NCBI GenBank assembly: GCA_013407085.1
Contig: JACCGJ010010702.1
Span: 1-64,000 of the forward strand
DNA length: 64,000 nt
DNA from: Atriophallophorus winterbourni
Lineage: Eukaryota; Platyhelminthes; Trematoda; Plagiorchiida; Microphallidae
Direction of reading: 5' to 3'
Part shown: one piece after another, positions 16,800-50,789 of the stretch
How positions within the stretch are numbered: position 1 is the stretch's first letter
How the letters are laid out: every line of letters starts with the position of its first letter
Notes under the pieces: model-generated
Database searches by the model: none
The model's input: only the letters and a program-made list of their open reading frames with translations
Told to the model about the DNA's origin: nothing
Made by a program: the position numbers and the translations under genes

Positions 16800-16843
16800 T
16801 TAAAATTGACTAAATCTTAGTAAAAACAAATAACTCACCATCA
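16800..16843 (-). CDS. MEG-B terminal coding segment
   Basis: The acceptor is GATGTTTAG. If used as the last exon it reads about 14 residues beginning MMVSYLF and stops at TAA. A GTGAGT five bases in could instead act as a donor, but a 5-nt exon would break the frame. AATAAA occurs about 205 nt further at 16590-16595. Confidence 0.45.
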
Positions 16844-48400: not shown

Positions 48401-50789
48401 ATTTTATGATTAATATTATGAATGGCGCTGTGCAATCGAGTGGTAAAAATTTGAGGATTGAGAGATTATTTAATCATCAACTTCATTACAGGTATTGCAA
48501 AATTATATGCTTTACTGAATGTAATGAACATCATCGCGCAACATCAAATGATTCGATATGTATAATTGGACATTTTTGATACGATAACTTTAAAGGAGAA
48601 ATCTATTGAATAATTGTAAACAGTTTAAAAAATCTTTAACTGACTTTTATCTCGCATTTGTTTCAATTCTAAATTTTCGAGAGTAAATAAATTTGAATAT
48701 TTTGTTTTTAAAATGAACTATAAACGAACTATTGCCAACCGACTTCATTGAACTATGATCTTGAAGTATTACATTCTCGTTTGAATCGCAATTTTGGTCG
48801 AGCATATTTAAAATTGACGATTTATGTTGTGATGATTATACAAATCACGCATATTAGTTCGATCGGGGATAAGCGAAATGTTCTTCAAGTTCTCAATCGG
48901 TATATTCCAGGTTTGGTTGCATGGTATAATATATATTCTATCGCGTAATATCTGTAAGATATCACCCATTTAGACGCTGCTACCTTCAAATTATTCTGTT
49001 TAATGTGGTTGATGACAACGATAATAAAATTGCGACTGATGTTTGATTCAGAGCCTTACAATTTGATTCCAGTATAGTAATGACGTTTATCTTAAGAATA
49101 ATGTGATATTATATTTCGTGAAAGTTCAAGTGAATTGCATTAGTTATACTAACTATTGACTGTCGAAATATTTTATTTATCAGTTCAATGAATTGCAAAC
49201 CATAATCAAAAATTTCAAACTGACCGTCTTTCAGCGCTGTGTTTTTGAAGAAAGAAAAATAGTTTTTTTTCGAAATTGTGGTGCTCACACTTCCTTGCTA
49301 TATATCAATACCGTTTTCTGACTGTTTTCGTTCATTAGGAGGAGATAGTAAGTTCAGTTTCAGTGAGCCTTGAAACTATGGTGAAGTGGTAAACAAAGTT
49401 ATACTTATATGCGACTGTTGTTTAACAAGGTGATTCTGTATTTGATCATCTTGGTTCTCTGTAGGAAATCTATACAACAGTGCCATACATGTATATCTCT
49501 TTAATGTCTTCATACCATATTTATACGAATGAATATTCTGGAAAGAACTTTTTGCACGTTTTGTTCGCACATTAGAGTAGGCCATTTACGACGAATATAC
49601 GCATGCCTAGATTTATAGAATAGCCATTGCGTAAGTTCGATCACAAATAATATAACTTTTCATAGCCTACGCATTTTACATTGGGCAGAATCCTTTTACT
49701 TTTTAAACGCAAATTTATTTCACAATACGAATTAAAATTGTAACGTAATTTTAAGCATCATATAACCAGAGGCAAACTATTTTACCATTGTTCTAAATAA
49801 CACATAATTTTATCAAATAATCAGCATTTAAAAGACGTAAACAGAGAAAATATTGAATGTTGTATACTATTCACATTTTCTCAATCAAAATTTTGCAGAA
49901 TAACTTATATTTTTCAATTGACATCAAAATAAAATGTAACGTTTTATAACAAGAAAGAAGAGAGTGGAGTAGAGAAGGATTCACGTTTGAATTAAGAACG
50001 ATTTTCTAAGTTGATCTTCCTATAGGTATTCAATTGATAGATTGTCATCTGTTTCGCAACTTTTCTTGCATAGTCTTTGCGTTACAACATATCTTGCCAG
50101 CAGAATTAAAAGGTAACATCCCGATAATGTATAAAAACAAAAATCTTGAGACTCACTATCGCACATAACCAAAGCTCCTATATCAATTAAGATGAAATGC
50201 TTAGGCATTTATTCTCGAAACGGTATTGTGGAATTGAAGTTTGTCTTGCTTACTATTGAGGTCATCTGAAAGTTTAAAATATCGTTAATAAATTATTAAA
50301 TCTTCAATAGGTCATCTGTAAATTTTGTATACTTACGTATTTCTTTGGCTGCAAATAATTTATAAGTCATGAACATCACATGTAGCTTTCGACTCAAATT
50401 ATGTAAGAAATTATGCAGTTTCGCATTTTTTAATGCGGTAACAAAGTGTTTTTTTATTAAACCCTTGGTCGCAGCACCCAATTCAATTATAATTTTGGTG
50501 ATTAGATAATGAAAACAATAACTTGATCTTCAGGCAATAATAGAGCTTCGGAATATAAGTGTGGCACGTTATAGCACAGTATTTTATGCCGGACTTATAA
50601 AATTTAGGTTTACATTCAATTAAAACGTAATATATTTAAAACAAACTGTAACTATGTTTTTACCTTGTGCAAAAGGCCCATACCAAATCAAATTTGTGTT
50701 TTTAATTATTGAATGATGACTGACTTACTCTTGTTTCCGAAAGTAGCGCACAAGTATGCGACGATTAAAATCAGTAAGACCAACTTCAT
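39409..50789 (-). CDS. MEG-A: 22-exon secreted micro-exon gene
   Basis: Read by hand from splice sites. A 61-nt first exon encodes a signal peptide; 20 symmetric internal exons of 9-33 nt follow; a terminal exon supplies the stop. Summed coding length is 438 nt (145 codons plus stop) spread over 11.4 kb. Every intron falls after the first base of a codon, and the joined frame has no stop. The mature product is predicted to be small, Lys/Arg-rich and largely helical, with a single cysteine (in exon A4). It should be secreted. The architecture matches schistosome micro-exon genes, but I do not recognise the family. The downstream paralogue MEG-B supports most exons by length and sequence. A TATA-like box lies upstream and AATAAA follows the stop. 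Aphid bicycle genes are a less likely alternative because their exons are generally larger. The function is unknown. Confidence 0.86.
39727..40237 (+). CDS. possible MCM-like two-exon fragment
   Basis: Two plus-strand exons lie antisense inside MEG-A introns. The first (39727-39815, 89 nt) follows a pyrimidine-rich tract ending ATTTAG and ends at GTAATG. It contains KRETLVINYDLIK. The second (40167-40237) follows CTTTCTTTCAG; the frame continues to FLLHSCFEFIE and a TGA. The first part resembles the N-terminal region of MCM helicase subunits, where a RESLVVNYEDL-type segment occurs in MCM2, and the second fits the leucine/phenylalanine pattern further on. It could be a pseudogene fragment or chance. 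No further MCM exons were recognised. Confidence 0.33.
39950..39970 (-). CDS. MEG-A exon A21, 21 nt
   Basis: The acceptor is TTTCTAG and the donor GTAAGT. It reads VPPNLTS, with an N-glycosylation sequon NLT. The positional equivalent B21 is 24 nt and quite different. Confidence 0.8.
40461..40481 (-). CDS. MEG-A exon A20, 21 nt
   Basis: The acceptor is GAATAG and the donor GTGAGC. It reads ELDTLKS, identical in protein to B20. Adjacent intron bases also match MEG-B. Confidence 0.9.
40887..40907 (-). CDS. MEG-A exon A19, 21 nt
   Basis: The acceptor is CATCAG and the donor GTAAGT. It reads NMPLLQL. All 21 bases match B19 although the surrounding introns are largely different. Confidence 0.92.
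41300..41990 (-). mobile_element. CR1-like LINE RT relic
   Basis: Minus-strand pieces read PELFDVISLFADDIKIGRCI, with the ADD catalytic motif of RT. Further pieces are EDCLLLQKDLDRIHSW and, lower down, STKLVLSIRNNPYKER. It lies in the A18-A19 intron in the same orientation as MEG-A. The frame shifts several times. Confidence 0.8.
42082..42102 (-). CDS. MEG-A exon A18, 21 nt
   Basis: The acceptor is TTTGCAG and the donor GTAAGT. It reads IATYLEQ; B18 reads MRWYIEQ. Confidence 0.87.
42725..42750 (-). other. decayed copy of exon A5 context
   Basis: The plus-strand block TTGTGGTGCTCACA matches that around A5 at about 49277. A 10-nt interval lies between an AAG acceptor and a GTGAGC donor. It would break the frame and looks like a relic. 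Confidence 0.3.
42936..42956 (-). CDS. MEG-A exon A17, 21 nt
   Basis: The acceptor is CAACAG and the donor GTAAGT. It reads AERYFPT; B17 reads AEQYIPI. Confidence 0.88.
43398..43424 (-). CDS. MEG-A exon A16, 27 nt
   Basis: The acceptor is CTTGCAG and the donor GTATGT. It reads ARKKKDYRM, a strongly basic segment. B16 reads ARRKKDYVK at the same length. Confidence 0.9.
44198..44218 (-). CDS. MEG-A exon A15, 21 nt
   Basis: The acceptor is CATTCAG and the donor GTGAGA. It reads FYNVIKK; B15 reads FYRAIQK. Confidence 0.84.
44361..44381 (-). CDS. MEG-A exon A14, 21 nt
   Basis: The acceptor is TTTCCAG and the donor GTGAGT. It reads VFRRIAY; B14 reads VFQRMAY. Confidence 0.88.
44791..44802 (-). 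CDS. MEG-A exon A13, 12 nt
   Basis: The acceptor is the non-consensus ATTCAAG and the donor GTAAGT. It reads LAKA. B13 reads LACA with a normal TAG acceptor, which supports the unusual boundary. Confidence 0.78.
45010..45425. repeat. two diverged direct repeats
   Basis: Two units of about 150-190 bp in the A12-A13 intron share ordered blocks such as TCTGATTA, TCCACTGTT and GCAAG/CCAAGT. No coding role is seen. Confidence 0.55.
45854..45868 (-). CDS. MEG-A exon A12, 15 nt
   Basis: The acceptor is TCGAAAG (AAG type) and the donor GTAAGT. It reads RSSTE. The positional equivalent B12 is 12 nt and reads IMEN, so this position varies between paralogues. Confidence 0.65.
45984..45995 (-). CDS. 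MEG-A exon A11, 12 nt
   Basis: The acceptor is TCCGCAG and the donor GTAAGT. It reads SYYD. There is no clear MEG-B counterpart. Confidence 0.65.
46500..46514 (-). CDS. MEG-A exon A10, 15 nt
   Basis: The acceptor is TGCGCAG, with a weak donor GTACTT. It reads SISQS and is the tandem duplicate of A8. The weak donor means it may be skipped often or be inactive. Confidence 0.55.
46939..46959 (-). CDS. MEG-A exon A9, 21 nt
   Basis: The acceptor is CGAAAG and the donor GTGAGT. It reads FNEVMVL and is the tandem duplicate of A7. It keeps the same length, frame and AAG acceptor. Confidence 0.68.
47131..47145 (-). CDS. MEG-A exon A8, 15 nt
   Basis: The acceptor is TTTTTGTAG and the donor GTAAGT. 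It reads SFSQS. It is duplicated as A10, which differs by one base. Confidence 0.75.
47467..47487 (-). CDS. MEG-A exon A7, 21 nt
   Basis: The acceptor is the non-consensus CTAAAG and the donor GTGAGT. It reads VKEAMAL. A diverged copy, A9, lies about 530 nt downstream in a tandem duplication. No MEG-B counterpart was found. Confidence 0.7.
47968..48000 (-). CDS. MEG-A exon A6, 33 nt
   Basis: The acceptor is ATTTTTTAG and the donor GTGAGT. It reads YYKFSKHFKKM, a basic aromatic segment. B6 reads NFKFSKHLKNL, also 33 nt, sharing the KFSKH core. Confidence 0.88.
49289..49297 (-). CDS. MEG-A exon A5, 9 nt
   Basis: This is the smallest exon. The acceptor is ATATAG and the donor GTGAGC. It reads TRK, and the paralogue B5 also gives TRK. 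Support comes from the paralogue and strong flanking sites, since nine bases alone carry little weight. Confidence 0.7.
50157..50177 (-). CDS. MEG-A exon A4, 21 nt
   Basis: The acceptor is ATATAG and the donor GTGAGT. It reads RALVMCD; B4 reads KALVMCD and differs at only two of 21 bases. It holds the only cysteine of the predicted mature protein. Confidence 0.9.
50254..50265 (-). CDS. MEG-A exon A3, 12 nt
   Basis: The acceptor is CTTTCAG and the donor GTAAGC. It reads HDLN; the B3 paralogue reads RDLH. The intron from A2 is 71 nt, as in MEG-B. Confidence 0.86.
50337..50348 (-). CDS. MEG-A exon A2, 12 nt
   Basis: The acceptor is TTTGCAG and the donor GTAAGT. With the split first codon it reads TKEI. 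B2 is the paralogue (DEEI); eight of the twelve bases form a shared block ending GAAATAC. Confidence 0.87.
50729..50789 (-). CDS. MEG-A exon A1, signal peptide
   Basis: The exon encodes 20 residues beginning MKLVLLILIV and ending ATFGNK, plus one base. The donor is GTAAGT. It has a typical signal peptide layout: one lysine, a hydrophobic core, then small residues, with cleavage likely near the FG. B1 has the same length and the same MKL start and FGNK end, which fixes the start codon. Confidence 0.9.

Follow-up and report, generated by a model that had tools for sequence, protein, structure and literature searches.

Micro-exon genes (MEGs) have been studied as genes for secreted, variable proteins of schistosomes and have also been described in tapeworms (PMC4413821, PMC7653826). 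According to Olson et al. 2020, a MEG has at least seven exons, at least half of them micro-exons (shorter than 70 nt and divisible by three), with a run of at least four (PMC7653826). In other descriptions, symmetric exons of 6-36 bp make up about 80% of the coding region (PMC5825161); still others mention long exons on either flank, 5' and 3' (PMC4671649), or specify that no known protein domain is present (PMC4413821). The MEGs of Schistosoma mansoni contain 10-20 very short exons (PMC10526429), and of the 38 exons of SmVAL6, 17 are below 20 bp, with 35 alternatively spliced isoforms among 67 clones (PMC2270263). Here, we describe two tandem genes, A and B, on the minus strand of a 64,000-base stretch (contig C6903:1-64000, hereafter the window), which are very probably two functional members of a previously unmatched MEG family in a digenean fluke, each encoding a small protein with a signal peptide and a chain spread over 17 symmetric exons.

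Gene A extends from 35364 to 16783 (about 18.6 kb) and gene B from 50789 to 39845 (about 10.9 kb), and both consist of a 61-nt signal-peptide-like exon, 17 internal micro-exons and a short terminal part. Self-comparison of the window gave short matches linking the 17-35 kb and 40-51 kb regions, and a finer minus-strand comparison showed islands bounded by AG at the start and GT at the end, such as A 18763-18743 with B 40907-40887 (21/21 bases) and A 17292-17272 with B 40481-40461. The internal exons measure 12, 12, 21, 12, 24, 33, 12, 12, 12, 21, 21, 27, 21, 21, 21, 21 and 24 nt, in the same order in A and B, and all 17 are in phase 1-1. In exon 1, whose coding part is 61 nt, a hydrophobic run follows MK, which we assigned to a signal peptide by inspection. 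Introns are longest in the middle of both genes and short near both ends, the maximum being intron 7, which is 6166 bp and repeat-rich in A and 1972 bp in B. Micro-exons account for 327 of about 405 nt of coding sequence in A (81%; 405 = 61+327+17), and in B, whose 3' end is tentative, for 327 of about 423 nt (77%) with exons 2-18 or 348 nt (82%) with exon 19 included.

These values correspond to two of the published descriptions of MEGs (PMC7653826, PMC5825161). Both genes have 17 consecutive internal micro-exons (12-33 nt) among 19-20 predicted exons, their micro-exon shares agree with the 80% rule (given the tentative 3' end of B), the 5' exon appears by inspection to hold a signal peptide, and Pfam and PDB searches revealed no known domain. 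As in S. mansoni MEGs (families 1-16 and 26-32), the 5' exon (in A and B putatively) holds most or all of the signal peptide, the very short exons number 10-20 and are mostly divisible by three, and the products are small proteins, presumably secreted in the case of A and B, with genes that cluster on some chromosomes near transposable elements (PMC10526429, PMC4671649, PMC4350168); central introns are likewise long and end introns short (PMC10526429). In contrast to S. mansoni MEGs, where 15-nt exons form the majority (PMC10526429), A and B have mostly 12- and 21-nt exons, no sequence match between the two was detectable, the post-signal motif described in PMC10526429 was not seen in A or B by inspection, and selection between A and B is purifying. 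The tapeworm MEGs of Hymenolepis microstoma and Echinococcus multilocularis also show runs of short exons divisible by three, and H. microstoma has a tandemly expanded subfamily with a conserved motif, comparable to A and B, whereas the N-terminal consensus differs (PMC7653826). The C-terminal micro-exon region of SmVAL6, shown to be alternatively spliced, also has many small exons in a single phase (PMC2270263), but there they are attached to an SCP/TAPS domain, which the Pfam search did not find in A or B.

The single spliced A protein had no homologue in the protein collection at E<=10 (9 candidates), and an alignment of four family members had none at E<=1 (441 candidates), including no named Schistosoma MEG, in a search that relies on shared 5-residue words and that distant relatives could escape. 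All Pfam matches were under the curated cut-offs (best E 0.0056, for B, 16.3 bits vs 31.6), and the best PDB match (E 0.12, for A) indicated no relative. The A protein used in the single-sequence, Pfam and PDB searches, and in the realignment mentioned below, included a 15-nt exon that was later rejected, while the alignment search used the corrected A. COX1 of this genome (539 codons, open under the flatworm mitochondrial code) is closest, among the matches listed, to that of Prosthogonimus cuneatus (79% amino-acid identity), followed by other digeneans, with schistosomatids at 65-67% among the 120 matches listed; on this ranking we assign the genome to a digenean that is not a blood fluke. 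Other COX1-like stretches, on L003, L004 and other contigs, contain TAA or TAG in frame and are perhaps nuclear mitochondrial DNA copies. The literature matches listed (titles and abstract starts, in part the best 25 of 1,910, 20 of 757, 20 of 437 and 12 of 185, with few subscription papers) held no report of MEGs for any digenean other than schistosomes, which is weak evidence of absence. The structure, the digenean COX1 and the lack of a detected homologue all agree with the first-pass annotation, which had proposed a MEG family without a known match in a trematode. Its remark that the run is extreme even for MEGs does not hold, since 17 micro-exons lie within the 10-20 short exons of S. mansoni MEGs (PMC10526429) and SmVAL6 has 17 exons below 20 bp (PMC2270263).

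We searched the genome (537 Mb, 15,840 contigs; copy counts are lower bounds) and found four further copies of the exons, one complete and three partial, in which the splice sites are intact. The complete copy is a paralogue of B (B'), at 10.5-22 kb of C2613 and mostly 75-80% identical. The partial ones are C7409, an allele-like copy of part of A (93-97% across its four long matches), and two further A-type copies, in C8097 and at 37.6-45 kb of C2613; the end of C13553 carries an A-type exon 1. With up to 3 mismatches allowed, degenerate patterns of exons 16, 17 and 4 matched 6, 6 and 3 places in the genome, all of them family copies, and the reversed-pattern control matched none. The family looks small in the assembly searched. 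Exon lengths equal those of A in 18/18 exons of B, 18/18 of B', 12/12 of C8097, 11/11 of C7409 and 4/4 of the C2613 A-type copy. Splice ends are canonical in all counted exons except for the GC donor after exon 18 of B (GCAAGT, at 40157; a GC-AG intron), where B' has GTAAGG, and splice dinucleotides differ at 0/48 bases between A and C8097, 0/16 between A and C2613, and 1/70 between B and B'. Exons are more similar than the remainder, both between B and B' (0.920 vs 0.778, 18 exons) and between A and C8097 (0.838 vs 0.674, 13 exons, including the later rejected 15-nt candidate), and the listed exon peptides of A, C7409, C8097 and C2613 contain no in-frame stop.

To be listed, a candidate exon needed an AG and a GT shared by B and B', or by A and C8097 or C2613, and the candidates were then compared copy by copy; the A-B structure was final after one realignment in the exon 9 region, and exon 12 of A, initially 12 nt, was re-read as 21 nt using another acceptor. 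The loosest conserved filter passed 42 AG-x-GT segments with an open frame in B alone, and since such segments are easy to find, we put the collinear chain to a blind test. At the DNA level, chaining AG|exon|GT segments (9-36 nt) between A and B gave 9 pairs, including exon 4 with its ends shifted, and a score of 121, compared to a mean of 3.2 and a maximum of 14 in 60 dinucleotide shuffles, and to 21.5 on the plus strand. The translated chain scored 316 in phase 1 (16 pairs), against 144 in phase 0, 116 in phase 2, 45/40/41 on the plus strand, and a mean of 36.1 (sd 13.3, maximum 74) in 200 shuffles. It recovered 13 of the 17 internal exons, added three pairs that we rejected, and missed exons 8, 9 and 10 (12 nt each) and exon 18 (GC donor in B). 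The resulting exons are as follows.

Gene A
35304..35364, minus: exon 1, 61 nt, MKLIIPILIAASLWVAFGNK, hydrophobic, signal-peptide-like; paralogous copy with donor at the end of C13553
35200..35211, minus: exon 2, 12 nt; blind translated chain, coordinates verified
35117..35128, minus: exon 3, 12 nt; blind translated chain, coordinates verified
35021..35041, minus: exon 4, 21 nt (ALVMCD); A/B island, DNA chain (ends shifted), translated chain, genome pattern search
34522..34533, minus: exon 5, 12 nt; copy-by-copy comparison, translated chain
32794..32817, minus: exon 6, 24 nt; both blind chains
32329..32361, minus: exon 7, 33 nt (FKFSKHLKNL); both blind chains, conserved in C8097
26151..26162, minus: exon 8, 12 nt; A/B island, copy comparison, outside blind chain
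22974..22985, minus: exon 9, 12 nt; pairs with B 45437-45448 after realignment, outside blind chain
22820..22831, minus: exon 10, 12 nt; copy comparison, outside blind chain
22067..22087, minus: exon 11, 21 nt (FQRMAY); both blind chains
21906..21926, minus: exon 12, 21 nt (YRAIQK); copy comparison, translated chain
20882..20908, minus: exon 13, 27 nt; both blind chains
20299..20319, minus: exon 14, 21 nt; both blind chains
18897..18917, minus: exon 15, 21 nt; blind translated chain
18743..18763, minus: exon 16, 21 nt (MPLLQL), DNA identical in B; both chains, genome pattern matches only in family copies
17272..17292, minus: exon 17, 21 nt (LDTLKS); both blind chains, genome pattern search
16993..17016, minus: exon 18, 24 nt (RVSNLRE); copy comparison, outside blind chain
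16839..16860, minus: exon 19, 22 nt, terminal coding (PPDV, TAG); same-codon stop in C7409, C8097 and C2613
16765..16783, minus: exon 20, probable start of a 3' untranslated exon, tentative; copy comparison

Gene B
50729..50789, minus: exon 1, 61 nt, MKLVLLILIVAYLCATFGNK; coordinates verified
50337..50348, minus: exon 2, 12 nt; splice ends conserved with paralogue, translated chain
50254..50265, minus: exon 3, 12 nt; splice ends conserved with paralogue, translated chain
50157..50177, minus: exon 4, 21 nt; splice ends conserved with paralogue, translated chain
49225..49236, minus: exon 5, 12 nt; copy comparison, translated chain
48645..48668, minus: exon 6, 24 nt; splice ends conserved with paralogue, translated chain
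47968..48000, minus: exon 7, 33 nt (YKFSKHFKKM); splice ends conserved with paralogue, translated chain
45984..45995, minus: exon 8, 12 nt; splice ends conserved with paralogue, copy comparison
45437..45448, minus: exon 9, 12 nt; splice ends conserved with paralogue, realignment to A
44791..44802, minus: exon 10, 12 nt; splice ends conserved with paralogue, copy comparison
44361..44381, minus: exon 11, 21 nt; splice ends conserved with paralogue, translated chain
44198..44218, minus: exon 12, 21 nt; splice ends conserved with paralogue, translated chain
43398..43424, minus: exon 13, 27 nt; copy comparison, translated chain
42936..42956, minus: exon 14, 21 nt; splice ends conserved with paralogue, translated chain
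42082..42102, minus: exon 15, 21 nt; splice ends conserved with paralogue, translated chain
40887..40907, minus: exon 16, 21 nt; splice ends conserved with paralogue, translated chain
40461..40481, minus: exon 17, 21 nt; splice ends conserved with paralogue, translated chain
40157..40180, minus: exon 18, 24 nt, GC donor (GCAAGT); copy comparison, outside blind chain
39950..39970, minus: exon 19, 21 nt (PPNLTS); splice ends conserved with paralogue, coordinates verified
39845..39858, minus: exon 20, tentative last coding exon, ends with TGA; conserved in C2613

Coordinates were verified for the first exon and the 17 internal exons of each gene (18/18 in A, 18/18 in B). This bears out the tandem minus-strand pair with a 61-nt signal-peptide-like first exon that the first-pass annotation had proposed (the signal peptide by inspection), and its exon-by-exon alignment is borne out by the equal lengths in A, B and B' and by blind chains far above the shuffles. 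Its estimate of 15-20 symmetric micro-exons of 9-33 nt was right as to symmetry, with the count now fixed at 17 and the smallest supported exon at 12 nt, no 9-nt exon being retained; its consensus splice sites are canonical throughout except for the one GC donor.

Several candidates were discarded. A 24055-24041 (15 nt, GAG acceptor) was dropped because the residue-by-residue alignment of A and B improves in its absence; a candidate near A 34908 had no match in B; B 46959-46939 and A 29000-28980, paired in the chain, each lie inside a repeated segment; A 18221-18204 with B 40814-40797 lacks the donor in B'; and A 25479-25471 with B 45415-45407 (9 nt) allows only two residues to be compared. 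B 45868-45854 has no counterpart in A, and B 48427-48389 corresponds to no A island and, at 39 nt, exceeds the chain length limit.

Several introns contain repeats. Introns 7 and 8 of A hold many direct and inverted repeat pairs (24211-31571), also matched in C13553 and C8097, which contribute to the greater length of the central introns of A compared to those of B. A segment of A beside exon 8 is duplicated inside intron 8 (23759-24160 vs 25743-26120, 70% identity), the second copy having no recognisable exon 8 by inspection. In intron 16 of A, 17937-18682 is a repeat with 64-66% matches at more than 30 genome places, and in intron 15 of B, the stretch 41010-42050 is missing from B', its first 490 bases matching dozens of genome places at 83-85%.

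The joined exons diverge as coding sequence does. Of the 129 codons in the joined exons, 84 encode the same residue in A and B, with 25/24/51 differences by codon position, a dS of 1.04, a dN of 0.21 and a dN/dS of 0.20 (bootstrap 0.10-0.36, 499/500 replicates usable), which shows purifying selection on the A-B protein. The dN/dS between B and B' is 0.36 (bootstrap 0.18-0.80). The first count gave 0.45 for A/C7409 (64 codons), 0.74 for A/C2613 (25) and 0.49 for C8097/C2613 (25), with too few codons to be weighed.

Other observations weigh against reading A and B as functional MEGs. Only candidates with an open phase-1 frame entered the list, before dN/dS was computed, so that the frame is partly built in and the frame comparison of the chains is the fairer test. 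Exons 8, 9, 10 and 18 are outside the blind chain, their predicted positions being supported by alignment judgement across copies, and the pyrimidine tracts at the acceptors are weak. In addition, A and C8097 give a dN/dS of 0.99 over 81 codons (0.45-3.94, 498/500 replicates; 1.09 in the first count), suggesting that the A branch is relaxed, diversifying or too small to tell.

If A and B are functional MEGs, transcription would be followed by ordinary GT-AG splicing joining the 17 symmetric exons, with one GC-AG intron in B, and the product would be a signal peptide followed by some 115-120 charged, probably helical residues, secreted and possibly host-facing. With all internal introns in phase 1, any of the 17 exons, singly or grouped, could be skipped without a frameshift, and a single gene could thereby yield many secreted proteins that differ slightly from one another, like the MEGs of schistosomes. 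By analogy with these and with SmVAL6, exon skipping is likely to be the use of the symmetric micro-exons. Nevertheless, all exons might be constitutive, yielding one conserved helical protein, with the tiny exons an incidental result of introns being gained or slowly eroding the exons rather than a means of varying the protein. We take this seriously, while leaning somewhat against it: A and B kept 17 exons of identical lengths across a dS near 1, and the whole chain is conserved rather than hypervariable (84/129 residues identical, dN/dS 0.20), but the phase-1 symmetry of all 17 exons, expected if skipping matters, would otherwise be unexplained, and A-type copies diverge without detectable constraint (A/C8097 0.99). 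We argue from the whole-chain conservation between A and B that the full-length form also matters.

The A/C8097 ratio, together with the repeat-rich intron 7 of A (6166 bp vs 1972 bp in B), might instead suggest that A is a decaying copy and only B-type genes are functional. We consider this quite improbable, because lengths and splice ends are intact in 18 exons of A, 11 of C7409, 12 of C8097 and 4 of C2613, the listed peptides of the A-type copies have no in-frame stop, and all 48 splice bases are unchanged between A and C8097. The possibility that no gene exists here, the islands being either chance AG-x-GT segments or non-coding elements kept by conservation, is next to negligible: such segments with an open frame are common (42 in B with the loosest filter), but the chain score of 316 against a shuffle maximum of 74 is specific to frame and strand, and third-position changes are in excess (51/100).

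The predicted mature chain is charged (22 K+R and 16 D+E in A after residue 20) and probably helical. Its predicted amphipathicity is mixed, standing out for B only and for the mean only: shuffles reached the mean helical moment in 420/2000 cases for A and 36/2000 for B, and the maximum in 1072/2000 and 255/2000. The internal exons encode 4, 4, 7, 4, 8, 11, 4, 4, 4, 7, 7, 9, 7, 7, 7, 7 and 8 residues, so that 14 of the 17 in A, B and B' are 4, 7 or 11 residues long, or about 1, 2 and 3 helical turns. Random lengths of 3-12 residues match this bias in about 1 of 10,000 draws, and over three length ranges (20000 draws) this uniform-length null gave at most 0.0003, although it is naive, as the lengths of different exons may depend on one another. 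The pattern is not accounted for by recent exon duplication, since the seven 21-nt exons are not detectably related, their mean pairwise identity lying within the shuffle range (reached or exceeded in 220 (A), 766 (B) and 370 (B') of 2000). The lengths might be tuned to the alpha-helix, the gene then encoding a length-adjustable secreted helix with its surface in register rather than a random antigen shuffler: skipping an exon of 4, 7 or 11 residues would remove whole turns and rotate the downstream part by only 20-40 degrees, keeping the hydrophobic face aligned. Given the naive null and an amphipathicity confined to the mean of B, we regard this as doubtful.

What is new here is a predicted MEG family without a known match, the 4/7/11-residue exon lengths, and the purifying selection between A and B. 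The presence of such a family in a digenean outside the blood flukes indicates that this gene layout is not restricted to schistosomes living in blood. A and B also allow selection on a MEG to be measured over joined exons at a dS near 1, and that the whole chain is conserved is relevant to the debated role of micro-exons as generators of variation. Chaining tandem paralogues under splice-site constraints works without RNA and could reveal such genes in other genomes, where gene prediction misses them.

Outside the two genes, a Mutator-like (MULE) transposase fragment lies at 6657-7103 on the minus strand, beside a frame (7429-7992, minus) for which the Pfam search gave no match. On the plus strand, 61860-62636 is a 258-residue open frame in which Pfam identifies a DDE_1 transposase domain (E 1.2e-26), and two pieces of the repeats at 24211-31571 match 62768-63054, just past this frame.

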